From a virus, in IMG/VR virus record IMGVR_UViG_3300009160_000119, positions 1 through 30,109 of that record: a stretch of DNA of 30,109 nucleotides, one strand, 5' to 3'. Below the pieces are notes generated by a model. It was not told where the DNA came from, did no database searches, and saw only the letters and a list, made by a program, of their open reading frames with translations. Position numbers and translations under genes: made by a program. Shown here piece after piece: positions 903-11,319 of the stretch. Numbering within the stretch: position 1 is the stretch's first letter; each line of letters opens with the position of its first letter.

Positions 903-1226
903 ATGGCTCAAGACTTTACAAGATACAAACAAAGATTAATTGGAGCATCTGCTGTTACATTATTTACAGCAAACTCTAATGACACAGTAGTTGGTATATC
1001 GGTAGCTAATATAACTACAAGCTCAGTACTTGCTTCTGTTTATATTAATGATGGTACTAACGATTTTTATTTAATTAAAAACGCACCAATTCCTTCAGGT
1101 TCAGCATTACAAGTTCTTGATGGTGGTGCAAAAGTTGTAGTTCAATCAGGAGATATTTTAAAAGTTGTATCAGATACAGCTTCATCTTTAGATGTTTGGA
1201 TTTCAACTGTTGATGCAATTTCTTAA
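903..1226 (+). CDS. Small predicted virion protein, unknown function
   Basis: This 107-residue protein starts 15 bases after the fibre gene and is followed by a C1q-type fibre gene. It has no signal peptide, no cysteines and no clear catalytic motif. Alternating hydrophobic and small residues, for example TVVGISVANITTSSVLASVYIN, then LDGGAKVVVQSGDILKVV, suggest an all-beta fold. Position among fibre genes makes a small structural or head-fibre-like role likely, but this is inference from context. Confidence 0.7.
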   Translation: MAQDFTRYKQRLIGASAVTLFTANSNDTVVGISVANITTSSVLASVYINDGTNDFYLIKNAPIPSGSALQVLDGGAKVVVQSGDILKVVSDTASSLDVWISTVDAIS

Positions 1227-1242
1227 CAGGAGAATAATATAA

Positions 1243-1926
1243 ATGCCTTTCATAGGAAATAAACCTTCTGCAGTACCTTTAACTTCTGCGGATATAGCTG
1301 ATGGTATTATAACATCTGCAAAGATTGTAGATGGTACAATAACAAATTCAGATGTAGCTAGTTCAATTATAACTGGACAAACTGCAGAAACTTCTATTGA
1401 TGGTGCAGATAGTGTTTTAATTTATGACGATAGTGCTAGTGCATTAAGAAAAATGACTAGAACTAATTTTGTTAGTGGTGTTGGTGGAAATAACACTCCT
1501 TATTTTTTAGCAACATCAAATACTGGCACAATAGGAAGTGCAACTTGGACTAAACTTCCATTTGCAAATGAAGTTGTAGATACATCAAATTGTTTTGATA
1601 CCACTAATTATAGATTTACTTCTAATGTAGCTGGTTATTATTTTGTTTATATAAAAATGTTGTTTTATGCAAATCCAGGCTCAGACAACATGAAAAGTGG
1701 ATTAGTTTCAATATATAAAAATGGATCAGCAGTACACAATGGAAATAATGGATATTACAGAAATGGTGCTGGTTTGTATTATTTTATGCAACCACAAGTT
1801 TCTTATTATGTCTATCTAAATGGCACTACAGATTACATTGAAGCATGGGGTTTCATGGAATCTAGCGGTGGATTAAATTATGATGGTGGCGGTTGTTACT
1901 TCATGGCTCACAAACTAATAGCATAA
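1243..1926 (+). CDS. Tail fibre protein with C1q-like C-terminal domain (copy 1)
   Basis: This is a 227-residue protein preceded by AGGAG about 10 bases upstream of ATG. The N-terminus MPFIGNKPS followed by SADIADGIITSAKIVDGTI is a short attachment or shaft-type sequence with repeated DGTI/DGII units. From about residue 85 the pattern NTPYFLA, ...YRFTSNVAGYYFVY, ...VSIYKNGSAV, ...YIEAWGF and a final GGCYFMAHKL fits a C1q/TNF-like jelly-roll domain used as a trimeric receptor-binding head. A shorter relative of this domain is encoded at 2228-2767, and each is followed by a similar small gene. Confidence 0.78.
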   Translation: MPFIGNKPSAVPLTSADIADGIITSAKIVDGTITNSDVASSIITGQTAETSIDGADSVLIYDDSASALRKMTRTNFVSGVGGNNTPYFLATSNTGTIGSATWTKLPFANEVVDTSNCFDTTNYRFTSNVAGYYFVYIKMLFYANPGSDNMKSGLVSIYKNGSAVHNGNNGYYRNGAGLYYFMQPQVSYYVYLNGTTDYIEAWGFMESSGGLNYDGGGCYFMAHKLIA

Positions 1927-1930
1927 ATAT

Positions 1931-2227
1931 ATGGCACAGTTATCAACAAAAATAAAACTATACGCAAACAAAGAAGTAGATTTTAGAAATGAAGTTATAC
2001 TTCAAGATGATAGTAACGGATTAGGTGCTTACATTAAAGAATGGAATTTAGATATTGCTAAACCAACTTTTGAACAATTAAATTTATTAGAAGAACAAGC
2101 TAATCAATACGAACAAAATTTAATTAACGAACAAGTTAATAAAGAAGTAAGCAAACAATCAGCACTAAACAAACTTAAAGCATTAGGTTTGAATGATGCT
2201 GAAATCAAATCAATCATAGGAAATTAA
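1931..2227 (+). CDS. Small fibre-associated accessory protein, copy 1
   Basis: This 98-residue protein starts four bases after the C1q-type fibre gene. Its core, KIKLYANKEVDF then LQDDSNG, then YIKEWNLDIAKPT, is closely repeated by the product of 2774-3100, so the two are paralogues. It resembles small tail accessory proteins loosely called XkdW-like. The second half is Gln/Asn/Glu-rich and helical. The strict one-fibre, one-partner order suggests a chaperone or fibre-bound subunit, which is inference. Confidence 0.72.
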   Translation: MAQLSTKIKLYANKEVDFRNEVILQDDSNGLGAYIKEWNLDIAKPTFEQLNLLEEQANQYEQNLINEQVNKEVSKQSALNKLKALGLNDAEIKSIIGN

Positions 2228-2767
2228 ATGGCAACAAAATTAAAAGCTAGTTTAGGAACAACTGCAACAGGTACTCCTAGTGCAAGTACATTTTTAAGAG
2301 GAGATAATAGTTGGGTTGCGGCAGGTGGTGCAAACACTCCAGCTTTTCTAGCTACAACAAATGTAGGAAACACAACAACTGGTGCAGTAACTTTATTTTC
2401 TTTTAATGTTGAAACTTTTGATACAGATGGTTGTTATAATAACACAGCTGGAAATTATCGTTTTACTCCAACTACTGCTGGTAAATATTTTCTTTATACT
2501 CAAACATTACCTTACAATGTTGGACCAACTTATAATTTAATTGATAGAGCATTATACATTTATAAAAATGGAAGTGCTATAGCAAGATGTTCTCAATTAA
2601 CAAGTGTAGGAAGTACTTATGGAGAAGAAATGAATTGTTCTGTTATTGCGGAAGCAAATGGAACAACAGATTATTTTGATGTTAGATATGAAGTTAATGT
2701 TACTTCAAGTACAGCACAACATGATGGCGGTGCTTGTAACTTTTTTGGATTTAAACTTTTAAGTTAA
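2228..2767 (+). CDS. Tail fibre protein with C1q-like domain (copy 2)
   Basis: This 179-residue protein begins directly after the stop of the preceding small gene. A short N-terminal part (TPSASTFLRGDNSWVAAGG) of the kind found in phage fibres leads into a C1q-like region from about residue 38: NTPAFLA, then YRFTPTTAGKYFLY, LYIKNGSA-type strands and a final GGACNFFGFKLL. The domain matches that of 1243-1926 in order and key positions but the shaft is much shorter. It looks like a duplicated head domain on a different stem. Confidence 0.76.
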   Translation: MATKLKASLGTTATGTPSASTFLRGDNSWVAAGGANTPAFLATTNVGNTTTGAVTLFSFNVETFDTDGCYNNTAGNYRFTPTTAGKYFLYTQTLPYNVGPTYNLIDRALYIYKNGSAIARCSQLTSVGSTYGEEMNCSVIAEANGTTDYFDVRYEVNVTSSTAQHDGGACNFFGFKLLS

Positions 2768-2773
2768 TAATAT

Positions 2774-3100
2774 ATGGCACACATACAAACTAAAATAAAC
2801 TTATACGCAAATAAACAAGTTAACTTTAAAACAGAAGTTAAACTTAGAGATGATTCTAATGGTAATGGAATTTATATTTATGAATGGAATCTTGATATTG
2901 CTAAACCAACATTAGCACAGTTAGATGCTTTTGAAGCACAAGCTAATGAAGTTGAAAGACTAAACCTAATTAAAGCAAATAGAGGAAACGAATATCCTGA
3001 TTTTAGAGAGTACCTAGATGGTATTGTTAAAGGCGATGATGCACAGGTACAAAAATATATTAACGACTGCTTAGCAGTCAAAAATAAATATCCAAAATAA
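2774..3100 (+). CDS. Small fibre-associated accessory protein, copy 2
   Basis: This 108-residue protein is a paralogue of the one at 1931-2227: KINLYANKQVNF, LRDDSNGNG, YEWNLDIAKPT are shared nearly word for word in the first 50 residues. The C-terminal halves differ; here it is charged with EYPDFREYLDG and YINDCLAV. Spacing from its partner fibre is six bases. Function is not established; pairing with a C1q-type fibre suggests folding or assembly. Confidence 0.72.
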   Translation: MAHIQTKINLYANKQVNFKTEVKLRDDSNGNGIYIYEWNLDIAKPTLAQLDAFEAQANEVERLNLIKANRGNEYPDFREYLDGIVKGDDAQVQKYINDCLAVKNKYPK

Positions 3101-3103
3101 ATT

Positions 3104-3886
3104 ATGGCATATATCGGCAAACAACCAACTTCTGGAGTTTATCTTAAACTAGATCCAATAACAACTTCTGCAACAACAACATTTAATTTAACAAATAATG
3201 CAGTAGCTTACTTTCCTGGATCAGCTGCTAATTGTTTAGTAACTCTTAATGGTATTCTACAATCTCCAAATTCTGATTACTCAATTTCTGGTTCAACAAT
3301 AGTATTTGCTGATGCACTAACAAGTTCAGATGTAATTAATTCAATAGTAGTTTTAGGAGATACCTTTGCAGTAGGTACTATTCCAGATGGTAGTATAACA
3401 ACAGCAAAATTAACTTCATCATTAACTTTAGTTACTCCAACAATTTCTAGTATTATTAATACAGGTACTTTAACATTACCAACTTCTACTGATACATTAG
3501 TTGGCAGAGCTACTACTGATACTCTAACAAACAAAACAGTTACAAATCCAACAATAACAAATTATACAGAATCTGTAGTTAGCATTGGTACAGTTACTTC
3601 ATCAAATACTATTTCATTAACATCAGGCACAGTTCAAACTGCAACACTAACAGCTTCAACAGCTTGTACATTTACAATGCCTACTGCAACAGCTGGTAAA
3701 TCTTTTATTTTATTATTAAAACAAGCAGCATCTACTGGTAATGGTACAGCTACATTTACAGGAGTAAAGTGGGGAACTTCTGGCTCTCCTACAATAACAG
3801 CAACAGCAGGAAAAATGGATATATTAACTTTTGTATCAGATGGAACTAATTGGTATGGCTCTGCTGCACAAGGTTATACTCCATAA
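3104..3886 (+). CDS. Tail fibre protein
   Basis: This 260-residue protein begins MAYIGKQPTSGVYLKLDPI, an opening common in marine podo- and myovirus fibres. The first ~90 residues (FNLTNNAVAYFPGSA, LVTLNGILQSP, DYSISGSTIVFADAL) look like a beta-rich attachment domain. A middle region carries TLTNKTVTNPTI, similar to the repeat at the end of the first fibre in this window. The C-terminus (FTGVKWGTSGSPTITATAGKMDILTFVSDGTNWYGS) is a common fibre tip sequence. Its stop TAA shares one base with the ATG of the next gene, so the two are likely translated together. Confidence 0.78.
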   Translation: MAYIGKQPTSGVYLKLDPITTSATTTFNLTNNAVAYFPGSAANCLVTLNGILQSPNSDYSISGSTIVFADALTSSDVINSIVVLGDTFAVGTIPDGSITTAKLTSSLTLVTPTISSIINTGTLTLPTSTDTLVGRATTDTLTNKTVTNPTITNYTESVVSIGTVTSSNTISLTSGTVQTATLTASTACTFTMPTATAGKSFILLLKQAASTGNGTATFTGVKWGTSGSPTITATAGKMDILTFVSDGTNWYGSAAQGYTP

Positions 3887-4662
3887 TGTTTGCTTATAAA
3901 AATTCGTTTTTATCTGGTGGTGCATCAGTACCATACACAGTAAATTATTTAATCGTAGCTGGTGGTGGTGGAAACCAAGTAAGTCAAGGTTCTGCCAGAG
4001 AATCTGGTTCAGGCGGTGGTGGACTAAGAACTTCTTATGGTTCAACTTCTGGCGGTGGTTCTAGTGCAGAAGCATCTTTAACATTTACAGCAGGAACAGT
4101 TTACACAATTACAGTTGGTGCTGGTGCAGGTGGAAAAGCTAATGGTGGAAATAGTGAATTATCAGGAACAGGAATATCTACAATAACTTCTTTAGGTGGT
4201 GGCGCAGGTGCAAATTACGATGGAAATTCTGGTAGCAATGGCGGTTGTGGTGGTGGTGGCTGGTACACAGGCGGCAGAGGATATGGAACTGCAAATCAAG
4301 GATTTAATGGAGATACTGGATATACAGGTTCTCCTTATGGTGGAACTGGTGGTGGAGCTGGAAGTGCAGGTGGTAGAGACACTTCAGTTGGAGCAGGTTT
4401 AGCTGTTTCAATAAATGGTTCTGCTATTACTTATTCAACTGGTGGAGTTTCAAATAACTTTCCAGGTACATATAGAAATTCAAGTGGTGCATCAAATACA
4501 GGAAATGGTGGTGGTGGAGCTGGTAATGGTGGTTCAGGAATTGTAGTTCTTCGTATGCCTACATCAAGATATTCAGCAACTCATTCAGGTTCTCCGACAA
4601 TTACAACATCAGGTACAGATACAATATTAACTTACACAGGTTCTGGGAGTTACACAGCATAA
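3886..4662 (+). CDS. Glycine-rich phage adhesin
   Basis: I place the start at ATG 3886, inside the stop of the preceding gene (TAATG). An upstream in-frame start at 3850 would overlap the fibre gene out of frame and is less likely. The 258-residue product opens MFAYKNSFLSGG and is then dominated by GGGG-containing loops (VAGGGG, GSGGGG, GGCGGGGWYTGG) separated by short aromatic beta strands. It ends with GSGIVVLRMP and a YTGSGSYTA tail. This is the pattern of glycine-rich tip adhesins that use polyglycine-sandwich-like folds to contact the host surface. The same TAATG coupling joins it to the next gene. Confidence 0.75.
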   Translation: MFAYKNSFLSGGASVPYTVNYLIVAGGGGNQVSQGSARESGSGGGGLRTSYGSTSGGGSSAEASLTFTAGTVYTITVGAGAGGKANGGNSELSGTGISTITSLGGGAGANYDGNSGSNGGCGGGGWYTGGRGYGTANQGFNGDTGYTGSPYGGTGGGAGSAGGRDTSVGAGLAVSINGSAITYSTGGVSNNFPGTYRNSSGASNTGNGGGGAGNGGSGIVVLRMPTSRYSATHSGSPTITTSGTDTILTYTGSGSYTA

Positions 4663-5015
4663 TGGCACACTTTGCAAAATTAGGAGTTGGAAATATTGTT
4701 GAACAAGTAATTGTAGTATCTAATGATATTGCAGTAACTGAACAAGCTGGAATAGATTTTATAAATAATCTTTATAGAACAAGTGATGTTTGGAAACAAA
4801 CTTCATACAATGGTAGCTTTAGAAAAAACATGGCTACAATTGGTGGCACTTATGACGAACTAAGAGATGCTTTTATTTTTCCTAAATATAACAAGAGCTG
4901 GATATTAGACGAAGAAACCTTGTCTTGGAAACCACCTATTGAATATCCTAATGATGGAAAAGATTATGTATGGAATGAGCCAACTTTATCTTGGAACGAA
5001 GTAGAAATTAAATAA
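4662..5015 (+). CDS. Conserved marine phage tail-region protein, unknown function
   Basis: This 117-residue protein starts with ATG overlapping the adhesin stop by one base. The pattern MAHFAKLGVGNIVEQVIVV, W-KQTSYN, RKNMATIGGTYDE, AFIFPKYNKSW and two W-containing repeats near the end (LSWKPP, LSWNE) is one I associate with a small protein found near fibre genes in pelagiphages and cyanophages. No biochemical role is known to me. Location suggests a fibre or adhesin partner. Confidence 0.75.
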   Translation: MAHFAKLGVGNIVEQVIVVSNDIAVTEQAGIDFINNLYRTSDVWKQTSYNGSFRKNMATIGGTYDELRDAFIFPKYNKSWILDEETLSWKPPIEYPNDGKDYVWNEPTLSWNEVEIK

Positions 5016-5047
5016 TTAAAATTTCTTAACAACTAACAAATAACAAC

Positions 5048-5170
5048 ATGACAATATTATTAATGACATTAAGTTTTATCGTAGGAGTTTGGTTAGCATG
5101 GAGATATGAAAATATATTAGATGATTTCATAGAACACTTTAAAACAATTTATCATGGCAAAGAAAAATAA
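5048..5170 (+). CDS. Small single-span membrane protein (40 aa)
   Basis: A short frame runs from ATG 5048 to TAA 5168-5170. Residues 1-18 are strongly hydrophobic (MTILLMTLSFIVGVWLAW) and are followed by a charged helix with DDFIEHFKTIYHGKEK. It overlaps the next holin-like gene by 17 bases. Placement at the head of the lysis region makes a holin accessory or antiholin plausible, but this is based on topology and position only. Confidence 0.5.
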   Translation: MTILLMTLSFIVGVWLAWRYENILDDFIEHFKTIYHGKEK

Positions 5171-5375
5171 AAAACTTGTAAGTCAAGTTTCGTTAACAAC
5201 AATCGATCAAAAGATTTGCGAACTTCATAAAATAGTTCAAGGAAATTCAAACGACATTCAAATTATCAAGGAAGAGATGGCGTATGGCAAAGGTGGAGTT
5301 AAAGTTCTGGTATGGATTATCGGAATAGTTGTTACTCTAATTGCTGCGTGGAACATCTTACCATTTAAAAAATAA
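5154..5375 (+). CDS. XhlA/holin-like membrane protein
   Basis: This 73-residue protein has a basic N-terminus (MAKKNKK), a helical heptad-like segment around residues 15-45 (IDQKICELHKIVQGNSNDIQ) and one C-terminal transmembrane span near 49-68 (VKVLVWIIGIVVTLIAAW). A coiled helix followed by one membrane span is the build of XhlA-type lysis accessory proteins. The gene lies before a lysozyme and directly abuts the next frame. A holin or holin-helper role is likely. Confidence 0.6.
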   Translation: MAKKNKKLVSQVSLTTIDQKICELHKIVQGNSNDIQIIKEEMAYGKGGVKVLVWIIGIVVTLIAAWNILPFKK

Positions 5376-5699
5376 TTGAAACATTACAACAAAGGAATTG
5401 CAGCTCACATGATTGCAATTCTTGAATTAGTAGATGATGACCATTTAGTATTCACAAATGTTAATGGCGTTGGTCCAATAGACATTGTTACTGTTAATAC
5501 AAAAACAGGCAAAGTTGATCTATATGATGCCAAATCTGATCGTGAAAGCAGGCATTACAAAAGACCAATTAATGACATTCAAAAAAAATTAAAGGTTAAA
5601 CAATTTTATATAAATCTAAAAAAGCGAACTTACAAATTAGGTAACAAAAGAGGATCTATTTTTGCAAATGAACTTACAGACAATAAAAGATCGGATTAA
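5376..5699 (+). CDS. Small PD-(D/E)XK nuclease-like protein in the lysis region
   Basis: This is a 107-residue frame starting with TTG immediately after the stop at 5373-5375; an internal ATG lies at 5409. I prefer the TTG because the helix KGIAAHMIAILELV would otherwise be lost. The segment GPIDIVTVN, a short turn, then VDLYDAKS has the spacing of a restriction-endonuclease-like core (Asp, then Asp-Ala-Lys). The protein ends in a basic tail. It overlaps the lysozyme gene by about 30 bases. Nuclease activity is inferred from motif spacing only; a Holliday-junction-resolvase-like or inactive fold is equally possible. Confidence 0.55.
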   Translation: MKHYNKGIAAHMIAILELVDDDHLVFTNVNGVGPIDIVTVNTKTGKVDLYDAKSDRESRHYKRPINDIQKKLKVKQFYINLKKRTYKLGNKRGSIFANELTDNKRSD

Positions 5700-6096
5700 A
5701 AAACACGAAGGTTATAGAGATACAATCTATACTGATAGCCTTGGCTACAATACAATTGGCTATGGTCATCTTGTTGTTGAGGATGGATTTATACCTGGCG
5801 TTCAATATTCTAAAAAAGAACTTGAAGAAGTTTTTGAAAAAGATTTTGCAATAGCAATTCAAGGAGCAAATAAATTAGTAGGAGATTTTGATATTGATGA
5901 TGATGCTTTTGGCGTTGTTGTTGAGATGTGTTTCCAATTAGGATTTCCAAGAGTTTTAAAATTCAAATTCTTTTTAGCTGCGTTACAAAAACAAGATTAT
6001 GAAAAAGCAGCAGAAGAAATGCTGCTAAGTAAATGGCACGAACAAACGCCTTCACGTTGCCAAGAATTATCAAACATTATGAGGAGCTGCGAATAA
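5668..6096 (+). CDS. GH24 lysozyme (T4-type muramidase, endolysin)
   Basis: The product cleaves the beta-1,4 bond between MurNAc and GlcNAc in peptidoglycan to release progeny. The T4 catalytic triad is visible: E14 in KKHEGYR, D23 in YTDSLG and T29 in YNTIGYGH (numbered from ATG 5668). Length (142 aa) fits the family. No signal peptide or SAR anchor is seen, so a holin should be needed. An AGAGGA near 5649-5654 is better spaced for a TTG at 5662, so two residues more are possible. It sits between holin-like genes. Confidence 0.92.
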   Translation: MNLQTIKDRIKKHEGYRDTIYTDSLGYNTIGYGHLVVEDGFIPGVQYSKKELEEVFEKDFAIAIQGANKLVGDFDIDDDAFGVVVEMCFQLGFPRVLKFKFFLAALQKQDYEKAAEEMLLSKWHEQTPSRCQELSNIMRSCE

Positions 6097-6097
6097 T

Positions 6098-6457
6098 ATG
6101 TTAGGATTTATAACTGCATTAATTAAAAATCCATTAACGAGTTTAGTTGTAGATAAAACAGTAAATGCAATTAATCATCATTTAGAAGTTAAAAAGTTAG
6201 AACGAATTGCAGAGATTGAAGCTGCTAAAGTTGTTTCCGTTGCACAAGTAGAGGCTTCAGAAAAAAGTTTAAAAGATGAATATCTAACAATCTTTATTAC
6301 AGTCATTATTGGTATGGCATTCCTGCCACAAACACAGGCTTATGTTATTAAAGGTTTTGATATTTTAAAGCAGGCTCCAGCAGAATTTTGGTGGTCTGTT
6401 CTAATAGTATTCTCAGGATCATTTGGAATTAATGTCATCGACAAATTCAAACGATAG
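6098..6457 (+). CDS. Holin-like membrane protein (3TM type)
   Basis: This 119-residue protein begins two bases after the lysozyme stop. An N-terminal amphipathic segment (MLGFITALIKNPLTSLVV) and a charged helix (LERIAEIEAAKVVSVAQVEASEKS) precede KDEYLTIFITVIIGMAFLP and a second hydrophobic span near residues 96-112 (FWWSVLIVFSGSFGINV). The layout helix-rich N-terminus, EAS-K-S-x-KDE, then two spans resembles the holin family described for gene-transfer-agent release. It is likely the pore former that lets the lysozyme reach the wall. Confidence 0.65.
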   Translation: MLGFITALIKNPLTSLVVDKTVNAINHHLEVKKLERIAEIEAAKVVSVAQVEASEKSLKDEYLTIFITVIIGMAFLPQTQAYVIKGFDILKQAPAEFWWSVLIVFSGSFGINVIDKFKR

Positions 6458-6537
6458 CTGCATCTACAAAACAGCTTTTGGCTGCTGTCTAATCAAAGCC
6501 TGCAAGTGCCAATCTAAATAAACCAAACAGTACATAA

Positions 6538-6903
6538 ATGTTAAATAAAGCCTCAAAGCGTAAGCGAGTGCTTACGTTCAAATGTTCTTTTTGTGGAACA
6601 CAATTGGATAGCAACGATACCTTTGTTGTTAGTGCAGAATATAAGCATTTTTGTATTAAAATAAATCCAGGTCATCCTCCAATTAAAGATTGCATGGAAG
6701 ATTACCGCAACAAAATAAAAGAAGATCATGTACGGAATGAACGCTTACGGCAAGAAGCCGCTATCAAAGAAAAGCAAGAACAAGAAAAAATCAAACAAGA
6801 AAAGATAAAAGCAATTCCTGCTTTAGAAAAAAAAGTTCAGGAGTTTAAACAATTTCAAAAACAACAAAGATTACAAAATGAAAAAAGGTTATCACAAAAC
6901 TAA
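6538..6903 (+). CDS. Zinc-finger-like protein with coiled-coil tail, unknown function
   Basis: This 121-residue protein has KCSFCGTQL at residues 15-23 and further C/H residues at HFCIK and DCMED, enough for one zinc site. Residues ~70-121 are a highly charged helix rich in Lys, Glu and Gln (KEKQEQEKIKQEKIK). It overlaps the next gene by 26 bases. I do not recognise a family. The build suggests nucleic-acid or protein binding. The start of the gene contains a perfect 7-bp inverted repeat (6559-6576). Confidence 0.6.
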   Translation: MLNKASKRKRVLTFKCSFCGTQLDSNDTFVVSAEYKHFCIKINPGHPPIKDCMEDYRNKIKEDHVRNERLRQEAAIKEKQEQEKIKQEKIKAIPALEKKVQEFKQFQKQQRLQNEKRLSQN

Positions 6904-7036
6904 ATCTGGTAAGATGGCTCGCAAAGGTTTGTACTATAATATTAATCGTAGAAAAAAAGCAGGCACAAGCAGAAGCAAAGCTAAATCAACAATATCTAAA
7001 AAATCCTACCAATCCTTATTAGGTGGCTTTAAATAA
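6878..7036 (+). CDS. Very basic 52-residue protein
   Basis: The frame runs from ATG 6878, inside the end of the previous gene, to TAA 7034-7036. About a third of residues are Lys or Arg. The sequence GKMARKGLYYNINRRKKAGTS followed by SRSKAKSTISKKSY resembles small basic proteins common in pelagiphages and some larger viruses. No enzyme motif is present. It could be a DNA-condensing or virion protein. Its C-terminus SLLGG echoes the LLG ends of three proteins encoded between the terminase and portal genes. Confidence 0.7.
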   Translation: MKKGYHKTKSGKMARKGLYYNINRRKKAGTSRSKAKSTISKKSYQSLLGGFK

Positions 7037-7121
7037 GCTATATCTACCTAAAATTCCTTCCATAAAGACTCCAGGATTAACGATTTAAAGTCGTTACTAT
7101 ACTTGGCTCCTACCTAAAAAC

Positions 7122-7156
7122 AGACTCGATTTTGAGTCTATAAATCAAACTTTTTT
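7122..7156 (+). terminator. Possible terminator after the lysis operon
   Basis: A 6-bp perfect stem AGACTC/GAGTCT with loop GATTTT (7122-7139) is followed, after 11 AT-rich bases, by six T residues. The gap between stem and T-run is longer than usual, so efficiency is uncertain. The same 3' flank recurs after the integrase gene. Confidence 0.4.
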
Positions 7157-7183
7157 AAAAACCTCATATAAGACAATATAATT

Positions 7184-7220
7184 TTTGGTACAAAAATAAC
7201 TTGTAAGTAGTGGTACAAAT
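7184..7220 (-). repeat. Two TGGTACAAA sites (putative integrase arm sites, left)
   Basis: TTTGGTACAAAAA at 7184-7196 and GTGGTACAAAT at 7210-7220 are the reverse complement of the TTTGTACCA motif found on the other side of the tRNA-like core. Opposite orientation on the two sides is compatible with arm-type binding sites of a lambda-like integrase. Binding itself is inferred. Confidence 0.5.
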
Positions 7221-7307
7221 TCTCTATAAGATTTTATAATATTATGGTAAATAATTTGTATAAGGTGCAGTTTATTTTTTTTTTGCAATACAAAAGAGTT
7301 ACACCAC

Positions 7308-7327
7308 TTTGTACCAAACTTGTACCA
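7308..7327 (+). repeat. Tandem TTTGTACCA pair upstream of the tRNA-like core
   Basis: Two GTACCA units begin at 7311 and 7322, 11 bp apart, that is about one helical turn. The 20-base unit TTTGTACCAAACTTGTACCA recurs with few changes at 7541-7560 and at 17823-17842. It is a likely protein-binding site, most simply for the integrase. Confidence 0.6.
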
Positions 7328-7344
7328 GACGATTTTTGTCGTCT
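7327..7344 (+). other. Hairpin just upstream of the half tRNA
   Basis: AGACGA and TCGTCT form a perfect 6-bp stem with loop TTTTTG, ending 10 bases before the tRNA-like sequence. There is no downstream T-run, so it is not a standard terminator. It could shape a tRNA precursor leader or a recombination complex. Confidence 0.4.
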
Positions 7345-7354
7345 AGAAGTCAAT

Positions 7355-7394
7355 GGCGGGGTAGCTCAGTTGGTTAGAGCGCAGGACTCATAAT
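7355..7394 (+). other. attP: attP core: 5' half of an elongator tRNA-Met (CAT)
   Basis: The sequence begins GGCGGGGTAGCTCAG and runs through a complete D-arm (GCTC/GAGC), the 5' strand of the anticodon stem (CAGGA) and the whole 7-base loop CTCATAA with anticodon CAT at 7389-7391. After T7394 the expected TCCTG partner strand and the rest of the tRNA are absent. No 3' half is found in the window. Its place beside the integrase gene marks it as the integration core. A tRNA-Ile2, which also has a CAT anticodon, cannot be excluded. Confidence 0.82.
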
Positions 7395-7540
7395 TTTAGT
7401 TCGTTCTAGCTTTGTAGTTGTTAAAATTAAATTAGTCGCATCTTTGTTAACTTAACAAAGGAAATAATTAATCAGATAGTTTGTCAGAAAGTATAATGAA
7501 ATCAAATCATTTTGATTTTTGAATATTTTTTTTAAAACTT

Positions 7541-7560
7541 TTTGTACCAAATTTGTACCA
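7541..7560 (+). repeat. Tandem TTTGTACCA pair between core and integrase
   Basis: GTACCA units start at 7544 and 7555, again 11 bp apart. This copy differs from the one at 7308-7327 at a single base (T for C at the twelfth position). It lies about 150 bp beyond the tRNA-like core, a normal distance for an arm-type site. Confidence 0.6.
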
Positions 7561-7671
7561 GAATTTATTAACTTATTTTGTTTAGCAACTCATAAGTTAT
7601 ATTTTTGTAGAGTGCAGGCTTTGTATCATTAAGTCACTTGCCAACTTATCTGAGTGCATTATTAAATTAAT

Positions 7672-8919
7672 ATGAACTACTACTTAATAAATAAAAGAAA
7701 TCTTTGGACCATACAACGTAAGCAAGATCGCAAGCAAATGGCTCCAGGATTTAAGTTAAAATCTGAAGCTAATGATTATCTTGAAAAGCTATTAGCTAAA
7801 GATGCAGCACAAACTAAAAATCTTTCAGAGTATAAATTTAAAGAAGAATGGCTTGCCTATTCTAGTAAAAGATTATTGGATGCACAAGATCCTAATAATC
7901 GTTTGACAACAGGCGGAGTGCAAACTTACATTGGTCATTATAATCAGAGGATCAACAAGTATATGCCTGATGTTCTTTTATCTGAATTTAATATTTTAGT
8001 TTTAGAAAAGTTTTTATTAGCTGCTCATAAAGCTGGACAGCCATACAAAACTTTAAGAAGGCAAGTCAGAGATATTAGAACATTTTTAAGACGAATGAAT
8101 GTTGAAGGCAAAAAACCATGTCTTGAAGTTTTAAATTTTAAGATACATGAATTTTATGCAATCGTTCCAGCCGATGATGATAAATTTTTTACAAAAAAAC
8201 CAACTGTAATAAATGACAATCAAGTAAAGGCAATCCTGGATAAACTTAATAATGAAAAAAATAAAGATGCAGAATGCGCTATGAAGTTTGCAATCTTTAC
8301 TATGTCATTGTTTTTTGGATTAAGAAGATCTGAATTACTTGGTCTTAAAAGATCTCATGTAGATTTAGAAAATGGTTATCTAAATGTTGAAGGCGTTAGA
8401 GATCGTAACGGAGCATGGTTAAATCGTACAAAGAACCAAGCTAGCAAAAGAGCTATTGAACTTGATGAACATTCAAGCAAGTTCCTTAAATATTGGTTAG
8501 ATTATATTAATGAACATTATCAACATTCTCTTTGGTTATTTCCAAGTTTAAGAAAAAGTACATACGGAACTTTATCTCTTAAAAAAGTATCGGAATTAAT
8601 CTGGACTACTTACGCTGATATGGGGTTGGCTACAATTGAAAGAAGATATGATGGTCATATTAAGGTTGTTGAGTCTTTATTTAAAGGCGCACCTCTTAAA
8701 ACTTTTAGACATAGATTAGCAACAATGCTTATTAACTCTATGAATTCTGAAAAAACTTTAGATGCTAACTACGTTAAATCAGTTCTTGGTCATAGTCGTT
8801 TCCAAACAACTAGCGGTATTTATGGTAATCATTCCTTAGTTGGTACTGCTAAAGAACGTCAGGAAAGAGTAAAAGCAAAACAAAGAGCTTTAAATCACGA
8901 CACAATATTTAAAAGTTAG
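7672..8919 (+). CDS. int: Tyrosine recombinase (phage integrase)
   Basis: This 415-residue enzyme inserts and excises the phage at a tRNA gene through a covalent phosphotyrosine intermediate. The N-terminus (residues 1-45) looks like a small arm-binding domain, residues ~50-160 are the SAM-like core-binding domain, and the catalytic domain follows from ~180. Visible catalytic residues are R218 (FFGLRRSELLGL), K254 (RTKNQ), R346 (KTFRHRLATML), H374 (VLGHS) and Y384 (SGIYGNH). The position usually held by the first His of the HxxR box is K343. attP lies directly upstream. The gene ends at a convergent hairpin region. Confidence 0.93.
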   Translation: MNYYLINKRNLWTIQRKQDRKQMAPGFKLKSEANDYLEKLLAKDAAQTKNLSEYKFKEEWLAYSSKRLLDAQDPNNRLTTGGVQTYIGHYNQRINKYMPDVLLSEFNILVLEKFLLAAHKAGQPYKTLRRQVRDIRTFLRRMNVEGKKPCLEVLNFKIHEFYAIVPADDDKFFTKKPTVINDNQVKAILDKLNNEKNKDAECAMKFAIFTMSLFFGLRRSELLGLKRSHVDLENGYLNVEGVRDRNGAWLNRTKNQASKRAIELDEHSSKFLKYWLDYINEHYQHSLWLFPSLRKSTYGTLSLKKVSELIWTTYADMGLATIERRYDGHIKVVESLFKGAPLKTFRHRLATMLINSMNSEKTLDANYVKSVLGHSRFQTTSGIYGNHSLVGTAKERQERVKAKQRALNHDTIFKS

Positions 8920-8933
8920 TACATACACTAACT
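8914..8933 (-). terminator. Hairpin terminator for leftward transcription
   Basis: AGTTAGT (8914-8920) and ACTAACT (8927-8933) form a perfect 7-bp stem with a 6-base loop. On the minus strand the stem is followed by TTTTAAATATT, giving a plausible rho-independent stop for the leftward operon. It overlaps the integrase stop codon. Confidence 0.45.
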
Positions 8934-8938
8934 CATCG

Positions 8939-8985
8939 GAGGCTTGGATCGTTAAAATCTGAGCCTCTTAATCAAACTTTTTTTT
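8939..8985 (+). terminator. Hairpin terminator after the integrase gene
   Basis: GAGGCT (8939-8944) pairs with AGCCTC (8962-8967), with an inner partial stem. Ten bases later there is a run of T residues at 8978-8985. The integrase gene and the leftward operon converge here, so terminators are expected on both strands. Confidence 0.5.
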
Positions 8986-9222
8986 ATATTTTATTAATAA
9001 AACGTTACCGCAAAGGTAATCGTTATTTTTATAACAGTAGTTGTAAAGTCTTGTAGCTTTATTATTTTTTGGTAATTTTTTTAATTTACCTTCAACATCC
9101 ACAATAAAAGAATATTTATTATTTAATTTTATTTCTTCTAAATTTCCACCAATAAAAGATTTAGCTTTAGAGTAAAAAAATTGCTGATTGCCTGCTAGAG
9201 TAATTGTTTTTATTTTGTTCAT
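8968..9222 (-). CDS. DUF3846-like small protein
   Basis: This is an 84-residue protein, last gene of the leftward cluster. The pattern YSFIVDVEGKLKKLPKNNKAT, a stretch of aromatic residues, then NDYLCGNVLLIKY fits the DUF3846 pattern of phage and plasmid proteins (a short 'value-entry' domain with D-x-x-G-x-L...P.N...G-N at conserved places). Function of the family is unknown. It is separated from the gene before it by 219 bp, longer than other gaps in this operon, so it may have its own promoter. Confidence 0.6.
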   Translation of the reverse strand: MNKIKTITLAGNQQFFYSKAKSFIGGNLEEIKLNNKYSFIVDVEGKLKKLPKNNKATRLYNYCYKNNDYLCGNVLLIKYKKKFD

Positions 9223-9282
9223 AACGTAACCTAATGTTCCTACTTTCTATCTATTTAAGTACTAACTAAAGTTATTCGTTAA

Positions 9283-9306
9283 ACAATTAAATTGCTTTTT
9301 AATTGT
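9283..9306. other. AT-rich perfect inverted repeat between leftward genes
   Basis: ACAATTAAA and TTTAATTGT form a 9-bp perfect stem around TTGCTT. It lies in the 219-bp gap 9223-9441, which otherwise shows only AT-rich sequence and no convincing gene. The stem has two C/G pairs at most, so it may be a protein site rather than an RNA structure. Confidence 0.35.
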
Positions 9307-9441
9307 ATTATTAAAATAAACCAGCAAGCACTCTGGAGTCAAATTTATTTTTATTTTGCTTTATTTTTATTGGATTTGGCAAGAACTCTTGTACCCAAAA
9401 ATTGCATATAAAATTTATATACAAAATAATACACATTACTT

Positions 9442-9573
9442 CTACGATTTTTTTTTCTTACGAATAGCTACTTTAGAACCATCTTTATACAAGGTGTAGA
9501 AATTTCCTCTACCATCACCATAGTAACCTGTTATGTCTTTTTTAGTCTGTCTTAAATTTTTCATTAATTTCAT
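9442..9573 (-). CDS. Small basic protein (43 aa), unknown function
   Basis: ATG at 9573 is preceded by GAGGATAAG at good distance for ribosome binding. The product has a GYYGDGRGNFYTLYKDGSKVAIRK core that looks like one beta hairpin with a glycine-rich turn, and a poly-Lys end coded by a run of nine A residues. It overlaps the preceding gene by 32 bases in another frame. No family recognised. Confidence 0.5.
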   Translation of the reverse strand: MKLMKNLRQTKKDITGYYGDGRGNFYTLYKDGSKVAIRKKKKS

Positions 9574-9694
9574 TTAACTTATCCTCTAAGGAGGCAATTA
9601 TTTGGTTCTTATCTACAATCATCTTCTGTAAATTCTCATTCTCTTCAGCTAGCCTTTGAAAATCCTCTAATTTTATTTCAATCATTTCACTCAT
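9542..9694 (-). CDS. Short coiled-coil protein (50 aa)
   Basis: ATG at 9694 overlaps the stop of the gene before it. The product is one acidic heptad-rich helix (FQRLAEENENLQKMIVDKNQII followed by ASLEDKLNEINEKF). Such proteins usually dimerise. It shares its end with the start of the 43-residue gene. Function unknown. Confidence 0.5.
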   Translation of the reverse strand: MSEMIEIKLEDFQRLAEENENLQKMIVDKNQIIASLEDKLNEINEKFKTD

Positions 9695-9953
9695 AATCTT
9701 CAATAATCTCAACAGTATCTCCAGGAACTAAATCATATTTACTGTGAGGCTCCTCTAATTGAGCTATCTCAGCTTTAGTTTCCTTTAGTATTTGTTTAAC
9801 GTGATCTTTAGTTTGGTCCAAAACTACAGATAAATTAGGATAATTCTGCGGATATATTCCATAAATGTATAGATCACTTATAGATGTCATTAACCTAGAC
9901 AATCCTTGGTATTGTTTTTTTAATCTTAATATCCTGCTGTCGTATTCAATCAT
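9687..9953 (-). CDS. Unknown protein of the leftward operon (88 aa)
   Basis: The product has two helical segments (SRILRLKKQYQGLSRLMTSI; QTKDHVKQILKETKAEIAQLEE) separated by a Tyr/Pro-rich turn, and a C-terminal acidic end (VPGDTVEIIEDYE). It overlaps the next gene by eight bases. The 50-base gap upstream holds no clear gene. I do not recognise a family. Confidence 0.55.
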   Translation of the reverse strand: MIEYDSRILRLKKQYQGLSRLMTSISDLYIYGIYPQNYPNLSVVLDQTKDHVKQILKETKAEIAQLEEPHSKYDLVPGDTVEIIEDYE

Positions 9954-10003
9954 TATTTTTCCATAGTAAATACAGTAATAGCATCGCCGCTATAAAAAAA
10001 ATT

Positions 10004-10204
10004 TCAATCCAAAGAAGGTTTTGTACTAGTTCCAACATCTATTGCCTGTTTAATTTTATATTTAACGTTGAAAACTTTTAGGTTTAAAAACGTTGCATTA
10101 GTTATTTTTTTACCTTCTTCAACCTGCGCTGCAGCTTCATCTGGATATTCTTGCTCCAGGATAAAATCACAATTGCCTGTTGTTGTTTTCACAATTACTG
10201 ACAT
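10004..10204 (-). CDS. Unknown protein of the leftward operon (66 aa)
   Basis: The start ATG lies inside the last codons of the gene before it (10-base overlap), suggesting translational coupling. The sequence MSVIVKTTTGNCDFILEQEYPDEAAAQVEEGK has the spacing of a small beta-beta-alpha fold. There is no catalytic motif. Function unknown. Confidence 0.55.
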   Translation of the reverse strand: MSVIVKTTTGNCDFILEQEYPDEAAAQVEEGKKITNATFLNLKVFNVKYKIKQAIDVGTSTKPSLD

Positions 10205-10416
10205 ATCCTTGTTACAGAGCTTGCTGCTGTTTTAGTTACAATGTTACCTTGGTTATTAGTAAAGCTAGTAAAAGGCATATTATCAGTCATAATCATCGCT
10301 AATAATTTTTCGTGTTCGCCTTTTCTTACTTTAATATAAACACACCATTTGGCACTTACTTCAGGATGTTGTTTTTGAAATTCAATCTCAACATCATCAA
10401 CTCTAATTATTGCCAT
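10195..10416 (-). CDS. Unknown protein of the leftward operon (73 aa)
   Basis: I choose ATG 10416 because GGAG sits six bases before it, and longer versions would run deep into the preceding gene. The product starts MAIIRVDDVEIEFQKQHPE and contains WCVYIKVRKGEHEKLLAMIM. Alternating strands and one helix are likely. It overlaps the XRE-like gene by 14 bases. No known family is apparent. Confidence 0.55.
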   Translation of the reverse strand: MAIIRVDDVEIEFQKQHPEVSAKWCVYIKVRKGEHEKLLAMIMTDNMPFTSFTNNQGNIVTKTAASSVTRICQ

Positions 10417-10822
10417 TAGCAGCTCCTTCATATTTAAGATGTAGCGTTGTGTTGTGATAATCTTTAACAGATACATTTTTTGAAAGATCCGCCATCGTTG
10501 CAAGATTAACAGAGCCTAATTTAAAATCTTTATCTGAAGTGTTAAAAAAATTAGCTTCAACCAACTTACTCATTATTGCGATGTAATCTGGATTGATTAA
10601 ATTTTTAATTTCTTCTTTAAAAAAATCAGCAAATTGTTTTAATCTAAATATAGTTAAAGCATTAATACCATTTTCATATTTATAGATTTGCTGATAAGCG
10701 ACACCAATTACTTCAGATACAGCAGTCATACTTAATTTTCTTAAAACTCTGCAGTATCTTAAATTAGCACCGATCATTTTATTAAATGGATCTTCAATAC
10801 TTTCCATCATCTTTTTACGCAT
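10403..10822 (-). CDS. XRE-family helix-turn-helix regulator
   Basis: I place the start at ATG 10822, preceded by GGAG at seven bases. The 139-residue product carries a Cro/CI-type HTH at about residues 16-70: GANLRYCRVLRKLSMTAVSEVIGV followed by AYQQIYKYENGINALTIFRLKQFADFF. The second half is unlike known sensor domains. It lies well inside the leftward operon and overlaps both neighbours, so it is probably an early regulator acting on phage or host promoters rather than the main repressor, which I assign to 14187-15383. That division is inference. Confidence 0.75.
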   Translation of the reverse strand: MRKKMMESIEDPFNKMIGANLRYCRVLRKLSMTAVSEVIGVAYQQIYKYENGINALTIFRLKQFADFFKEEIKNLINPDYIAIMSKLVEANFFNTSDKDFKLGSVNLATMADLSKNVSVKDYHNTTLHLKYEGAANGNN

Positions 10823-11036
10823 CTTTGTTCTCCTGGTTGTTTGGTTTATTTGTTGTGCTTTCAAAACAAGCAGCTGGAAACTCTTTAAAAGTATTACCTA
10901 TTCTTAAAAAGTAGCCTGGGATGTTATTGAAATTTTTTATGTACCAAGATGTACCGATTATATTTTGACAGATACCTGTTGAATTATCTTTAAATCTAGC
11001 CTCACCAATGATGGTCCTGTATCTTCTTCTAGGCAT
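10815..11036 (-). CDS. Unknown protein of the leftward operon (73 aa)
   Basis: ATG 11036 is favoured by GAGG six bases upstream and overlaps the preceding stop region. The product opens with a basic patch (MPRRRYRTIIGEARF) and has GTSWYIKNFNNIPGYFLRIGN in the middle, probably beta strands. The C-terminal dozen residues are polar. No family recognised. Confidence 0.52.
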   Translation of the reverse strand: MPRRRYRTIIGEARFKDNSTGICQNIIGTSWYIKNFNNIPGYFLRIGNTFKEFPAACFESTTNKPNNQENKDA

Positions 11037-11319
11037 CGGCAGCCTCATTAATTTCATCTAAAATATGCTGCTGCTCAATAATTCTTGCTGCAAGATTTGA
11101 AATTAGTCTGCGTGCAGTAAAGCTATCAAAGAACATTATATCGGCATATTCTGCAAGTTTTTCTACATCTTTGTTATCTATTGGATGAAGATCAAAATCA
11201 TTTAAGTTCATTAATGCTTTCATTTTTTTTTGAACAATTGTTAATTCTTGTTCAATTTGAATTAACTGTGCGTTTTCCTTACCAGGAAATAAAATAATAT
11301 TATCTAAAATTTTGGTCAT
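11029..11319 (-). CDS. Unknown helical protein (96 aa)
   Basis: The product is mostly helical, with a coiled-coil-like region (QLIQIEQELTIVQKKMKALMNL) and a C-terminal helix (ARRLISNLAARIIEQQHILDEI). It overlaps the preceding gene by about 20 bases and the following one by eight. There is no enzymatic motif. Function unknown. Confidence 0.52.
   Translation of the reverse strand: MTKILDNIILFPGKENAQLIQIEQELTIVQKKMKALMNLNDFDLHPIDNKDVEKLAEYADIMFFDSFTARRLISNLAARIIEQQHILDEINEAADA

Follow-up and report, generated by a model that had tools for sequence, protein, structure and literature searches.

The usual explanation of why integration into tRNA genes does no harm is that the promoter of the gene is kept, and a review states that the rebuilt tRNA retains its original promoter with very few exceptions (PMC8371274). 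The Islander collection holds 159 islands with 5′ tRNA fragments as against 3760 with 3′ fragments (159 of 3919 in total; PMC4383910); taken together with the review, this marks the 5′-fragment design as rare but known. The tRNA-dependent lysogeny of mycobacteriophages relies on a shared core of about 10 bp and rebuilds no tRNA (PMC10865867), and for ICEKp1 a state-dependent switching of the int promoter was shown by experiment (PMC13023037). At the locus described here, temperate viruses of SAR11, a group that ranks among the most abundant bacteria of the ocean, would instead take over the 5′ flank of a single-copy tRNA gene. It is considered highly probable that positions 7355-7393 of the window (the whole stretch of DNA analysed, a virus record of 30,109 nt) form the attP core of a temperate HTVC010P-type pelagiphage, that integration takes place at the anticodon loop of tRNA-Met, and that an intact tRNA is rebuilt behind phage DNA. 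From the anatomy of the attachment site, a design found clade-wide and the junctions of relatives at tRNA-Asn and tRNA-Asp genes, we infer integration of the window's own phage at tRNA-Met.

The phage and its attachment site

The gene content of the window is that of a temperate podovirus, with domain or phrog matches to an integrase, an HTH repressor-like protein, lysozyme, portal, capsid, terminase and tail proteins. Its portal is 71% identical to that of HTVC028P and 58% identical to that of HTVC010P, and the window was therefore assigned to the HTVC010P-type pelagiphages, the portal identity and the capsid, terminase and tail matches together representing the structural module of this type. 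The HTH repressor-like protein (10403..10864, minus strand; PF01381, phrog_3/4/8) is consistent with a temperate phage. The tyrosine integrase, of 415 aa (7672..8919, plus strand; PF00589, E 1.2e-14; phrog_1, E 6.2e-28), adjoins the attachment site and contains the catalytic residues R218, K254, K343, R346, H374 and Y384, which are invariant across the family; the box II His position is occupied by Lys.

Located 278 nt upstream of the integrase, the attP core (7355..7393, plus strand) is an exact 39-nt match to positions 1-39 of the host elongator tRNA-Met(CAT) gene. It comprises the acceptor 5′ strand, the D-arm, the anticodon-stem 5′ strand and the full loop CTCATAA (7387-7393), after which the match stops. 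The original prediction had extended the tRNA half to 7394, but that base is already phage: past position 39, host genomes continue with GCCTGAGGTCAGTGGTTCGATCCCACTTCCCGCTACCA and the window phage with TTTTAGTTCG, the host 3′ half starting GCCTGAGGTCAG. Its central claim, that attP carries the 5′ rather than the usual 3′ half, was borne out, as the exact match ends at the last anticodon-loop base. No complete tRNA was found anywhere in the 30.1-kb window with ARAGORN or Rfam. The core 39-mer was present in 107 host contigs, nearly all Pelagibacteraceae/SAR11, where it almost always runs on into a complete tRNA, and also in 10 viral contigs. A chance match was rejected, since a 39-nt exact identity has no realistic chance expectation. 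An Ile2 or initiator tRNA was likewise rejected as the identity of the core, since the Ile2-type (GGGCCTG...) and fMet (CGCGGGG...) sequences are other genes in the same genome; the three CAT tRNAs of one near-complete SAR11 contig (953 kb) are distinct genes with one copy each. Elongator tRNA-Met was found as one copy in this contig and in nine of the ten SAR11 genomes examined; the tenth also has an island-derived tRNA-Met 3′ fragment. Given this single-copy status, the gene, which had been suggested as possibly essential, is probably so.

Six repeats, all forms of TTGTACCA (TTGTACCA/TGGTACAAA), lie on both sides of the core and are conserved or co-varying in relatives. Two outer repeats of the form TGGTACAAA are on the minus strand (7186-7194 and 7211-7219), and TTGTACCA occurs on the plus strand twice to the left of the core (7309-7316 and 7320-7327) and twice on the int side (7542-7549 and 7553-7560); the remainder of the window has just four more copies of the repeat 8-mers. 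They are predicted to be arm-type integrase binding sites flanking the core. The left-side repeats of relatives L128 and L130 have changed together to GGTGTAAA/TACACCA, and the L128 integrase also differs at its N-terminus, as would be expected for arm-type sites and an arm-binding domain. The core at 7355-7393 and the arm repeats that flank it, upstream of the integrase, make up a complete attP.

The probable crossover region was deduced from the end points of the tRNA portions carried by different phages. In 5′-carriers, identity stops with the final base of the anticodon loop (position 38 or 39), bar a few chance-agreement bases, and in the 3′-carrier found in SAR11 genome G134 it begins at the first loop base. 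The 7-nt anticodon loop, CTCATAA (7387..7393, plus strand), which bounds the attP/attB identity, is therefore the common segment and the expected overlap. Both the polymorphism at tRNA position 29 (G002) and that in the D-loop (G195) lie 5′ of this crossover.

Relatives and their lysogens

The comparison took in integrases from about 30% to 99% identical to that of the window, encoded in viral contigs, in SAR11 genomes and by the isolate HTVC028P. Outside one sister lineage, every informative locus (a phage or prophage locus with enough sequence upstream of int) had a same-strand tRNA 5′ half 206-435 nt upstream of int. This half was of tRNA-Met in the window clade, L010, L139 and L307, of tRNA-Asp in L127-L132, L147, L148, L171 and L313-L318, and of tRNA-Asn in HTVC028P and L309-L311. 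As the tRNA-Met 5′-half design occupies two places in the integrase tree and the window groups among tRNA-Asp carriers, the tRNA target has switched.

In the sister lineage, attP holds either a complete tRNA-Met or the 3′ half only. The complete gene lies inside attP in L312, L138 and the G002 prophage, so that both G002 junctions are intact. G134 is a classical 3′-carrier, with a complete tRNA-Met behind a host-type promoter on the int side and a far-side 3′ fragment starting CTCATAAGCCC. The host-side tRNA is thus intact in both of these relatives, and the wider family is not fixed on the 5′-half design. A whole-gene attP is plausible as an intermediate between the 3′-half and 5′-half designs, and the occurrence of all three in one integrase family suggests how the classical and the inverted arrangement could be connected and makes the cost and regulation of the latter testable. 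Several candidates were discarded during this comparison: L008/L138 was rejected as a 5′-type prophage end, being a free phage with a complete tRNA-Met in attP (confirmed by L312); G134 was rejected in the same role as a classical 3′-carrier; and the tRNA-Cys and tRNA-Val genes beside some integrases proved to be intact neighbours of interrupted Asn/Asp genes rather than signs of 3′-carriers.

Both junctions were recovered in three SAR11 genomes, two at tRNA-Asn (G079 and G296) and one at tRNA-Asp (G195); a related integrase was present in 7 of the 397 SAR11 genomes sampled, and for G342 only attL was found. These genomes are single-cell or metagenome assemblies in which separate contigs hold the two junctions of each prophage, and the integrases of the three lysogens are 38-45% identical to that of the window. 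In G079 and G296, attL consisted of the host tRNA-Cys, the Asn 5′ half and int, and attR of phage DNA upstream, a complete tRNA-Asn and the host locus downstream; the G296 attR flank closely matched that of HTVC028P. In G195, attL consisted of tRNA-Val, the Asp 5′ half and int, and attR of phage DNA, a complete tRNA-Asp and nuo genes. Other genomes have empty Cys-Asn and Val-Asp sites, which served as mutual controls and confirmed the native gene order. In all three relatives the only intact tRNA copy found was at the int-distal junction and the host upstream flank stayed with the displaced 5′ half, an arrangement of intact tRNA downstream and 5′ fragment upstream that is the mark of a 5′-fragment island. 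Furthermore, the displaced host half of G195 has the D-arm sequence CAGTTTGG, with one T more in the D-loop than the restored copy (CAGTTGG). The intact tRNA-Asp is accordingly a phage-host chimera with the phage D-arm, formed by a crossover 3′ of the D-loop.

The prediction that the rebuilt tRNA would be preceded by phage sequence was therefore seen in lysogens of relatives, at Asn and Asp genes. For tRNA-Met, none of the SAR11 genomes sampled contained a 5′-half-only phage with both junctions, and the SAR11 genomes and the host contigs with the 39-mer yielded no lysogen of the window's own phage, so that the mapping of attL and attR succeeded at Asn/Asp in relatives but not at tRNA-Met for the window phage. 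As natural lysogens exist, host cells do stay viable with a tRNA gene whose start lies in viral DNA.

Other features were recorded at related loci. The attR tRNA-Met of the G002 prophage (L136:2381-2457) is a chimera with an A-C anticodon-stem mismatch (phage GCAGG with host GCCCG). In G134 (L231 and L238), one tRNA-Met gene bears a stacked 5′-type small island, a 3′-type prophage and a further 3′ fragment. Five SAR11 genomes have integrase-less islands of 1.2-1.9 kb at the 5′ side of tRNA-Met (L134, L055, L070, L073 and L101); these islands leave a displaced promoter and about 50-55 nt of tRNA, provide a new host-type promoter and 5′ half for the intact copy in four of the five (none was recognised in G001), and carry, among others, a methyltransferase-like protein and secreted-type proteins. 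Tandem 5′-side elements were seen on the reverse strand of L137 (about 1175-11283 from the far end), where a phage-like element end and a tRNA-Met 5′ fragment are followed by a different, 334-aa integrase, about 10 kb of cargo and a complete tRNA-Met. Between attP and int, a conserved small ORF of about 48 aa (MFLFS...) occurs at about 2800-2990 of L119 and in its L250/L309 counterparts; in these Asn phages it is possibly an excision factor or leader peptide. In two contigs, the gene usually found ahead of attP in related phages is immediately followed by a complete tRNA-Ser(TGA) (L159:3694-3783 and L161:4279-4368).

Expression of the rebuilt tRNA

In the model proposed here, the target of the window integrase would be the single-copy elongator tRNA-Met gene of SAR11, with which attP recombines at the anticodon loop. 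As attP keeps tRNA positions 1-39 and none of the 3′ half, integration would displace the host promoter and 5′ half. The int-proximal junction would then consist of the host promoter, half a tRNA and int, and at the int-distal junction the phage 5′ half and host 3′ half would form an intact tRNA with nothing but phage DNA in front of it. A leader-tRNA transcript may start from a phage promoter located upstream of the arm sites, at 7154-7230, with its leader trimmed by RNase P. The region able to feed int in the free phage would in this case feed the tRNA in the lysogen and the host tRNA promoter would feed int, amounting to an exchange of promoters.

The tRNA-Met promoter of SAR11 is very regular, with TTGAAA or TTGCAC, a 16-nt spacing and TATAAA/TATAAG about 15 nt before the tRNA. 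A host promoter model was built from 96 such promoters, and scores were compared with those of shuffled sequence. A host-like promoter directly before the core was rejected as absent, the best match of the 96-promoter model in the window lying 124 nt upstream; the stretch just before the core is occupied by arm repeats and a hairpin. A promoter-like site had been proposed within 7201-7240 and was indeed present as TTGTAA-18-TATAAG (7201..7230, plus strand), the best match in the window, scoring 9.9 against a shuffle mean of 4.2, with 3 of 100 shuffles as high. Its spacer contains the arm repeat at 7211-7219, and its TATAAG block is conserved in L127-L130, as is the block of a second candidate, TTTAAA-17-TATAAT (7154..7182, plus strand), a type for which 4 matches were found against a mean of 3.7 in shuffled sequence. 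The upstream regions of relatives lacked a strong host-type element at some 15 nt ahead of the tRNA, and few beat shuffled sequence. The hairpin also proposed upstream of the core was exact (AGACGA-TTTTTG-TCGTCT, 7327..7344, plus strand) but not conserved, and was rejected as a required element because it is missing in relatives L127 and L129. Another hairpin, around GACTCGATTTTGAGTC (7120-7141), lies between the late genes and attP; it is kept in L127/L130 and nearly so in L128, and has a terminator-like score on the minus strand only. As sequence evidence for a promoter, these motifs are weak. A phage-borne promoter is the likely, and expected, source of the rebuilt tRNA transcript; the transcript may also come from a promoter farther away or from late phage genes by read-through. 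A wider scheme is put forward tentatively, as conceivable but on balance doubtful: the promoter left of attP would read int through the half-tRNA in the free phage and become the sole promoter of an essential tRNA once integrated, with the host promoter driving int, arm-bound Int linking the supply of tRNA to the level of integrase, and a backup tRNA gene being added in some lineages.

Such additional genes could also point to compensation, in which expression of the rebuilt tRNA is low and the phage or another gene provides a further tRNA of that isotype, much as in tRNA-dependent lysogeny. In seven contigs of the L235-type Asp clade, the int stop is indeed followed after about 30 nt by a complete, divergent tRNA-Asp(GTC); the Asp phage of G195 has a further complete tRNA-Asp near attR. 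An extra phage tRNA gene was, however, present only in this one Asp subclade and the G195 phage; it was absent from the window and not seen in the examined stretches of the Asp relatives L127-L132 or of HTVC028P, and an intact tRNA is rebuilt here, unlike in the published cases. Compensation for a displaced host tRNA is possible in the Asp phages, and as a general account it is judged unlikely. The tRNA-Asp(GTC) genes are convergent with int (L235:12604-12680; L313:2749-2826; L314-L318; L255:2439-2515).

It had also been predicted that loss of the prophage would be penalised, which amounts to a prophage addiction in which costly loss of the driver of an essential tRNA keeps the prophage in place. 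The single copy of tRNA-Met would favour this, as would the retention of an intact tRNA by the small integrase-less islands, where in four cases out of five a host-type promoter immediately precedes it. However, any tRNA-located element, whether 3′ or 5′, is equally expected to keep an intact tRNA, and integrase-mediated excision would re-join the host promoter, 5′ half and 3′ half into the native tRNA-Met gene. The penalty is unsupported because precise excision regenerates this gene, a cost to the tRNA arising only through imprecise deletion of the int-distal end of the prophage, and addiction is regarded as quite improbable. That the tRNA half is a mere relic of gene capture or homologous recombination, with no working attachment site, deserves almost no credence: although an integrated copy of the exact window phage was not found, exact identity ends at the anticodon loop, the integrase adjoins, six arm repeats are present and the layout is the same across divergent integrases with real integrated relatives.

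Comparison with described systems

The literature searched, in which coverage of key pelagiphage papers was incomplete and an earlier description is possible, contained no description of a 5′-half attP in pelagiphages. Within the same coverage, no account was found of its clade-wide use in SAR11, the chimeric tRNA of a lysogen, the series of 3′, full and 5′ designs, or the backup tRNAs. Pelagibacter phage HTVC028P resembles the window phage in its portal, in an integrase about 38-40% identical and in a tRNA 5′ half upstream of int, and differs in its target, which is tRNA-Asn rather than tRNA-Met. With tRNA-dependent lysogeny, the present system shares an integrase that disrupts an essential tRNA gene and, in some Asp-type relatives, a tRNA gene of the same isotype; the core here is 39 bp long rather than short, complete tRNAs are rebuilt in relatives, and the window has no tRNA gene. 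The likeness to ICEKp1, deduced here from geometry, is that the host tRNA promoter would transcribe int in the integrated state and a promoter at the element end would do so in the free state; in ICEKp1, however, transcription of the intact tRNA still comes from the host tRNA promoter. The classical 3′-half attachment of the Reiter/Williams/Campbell model likewise has a tRNA target, an overlap in the anticodon loop and a tRNA rebuilt on integration, but the tRNA keeps its own promoter there and loses it here. With the 5′-fragment islands of Islander, this system has in common a displaced 5′ tDNA fragment upstream of an intact gene, a tRNA attachment site and a tyrosine integrase. In contrast to that minority of islands, the design here extends over a whole clade of SAR11 podophages and three tRNAs, for which free phages, empty sites and lysogens are known.
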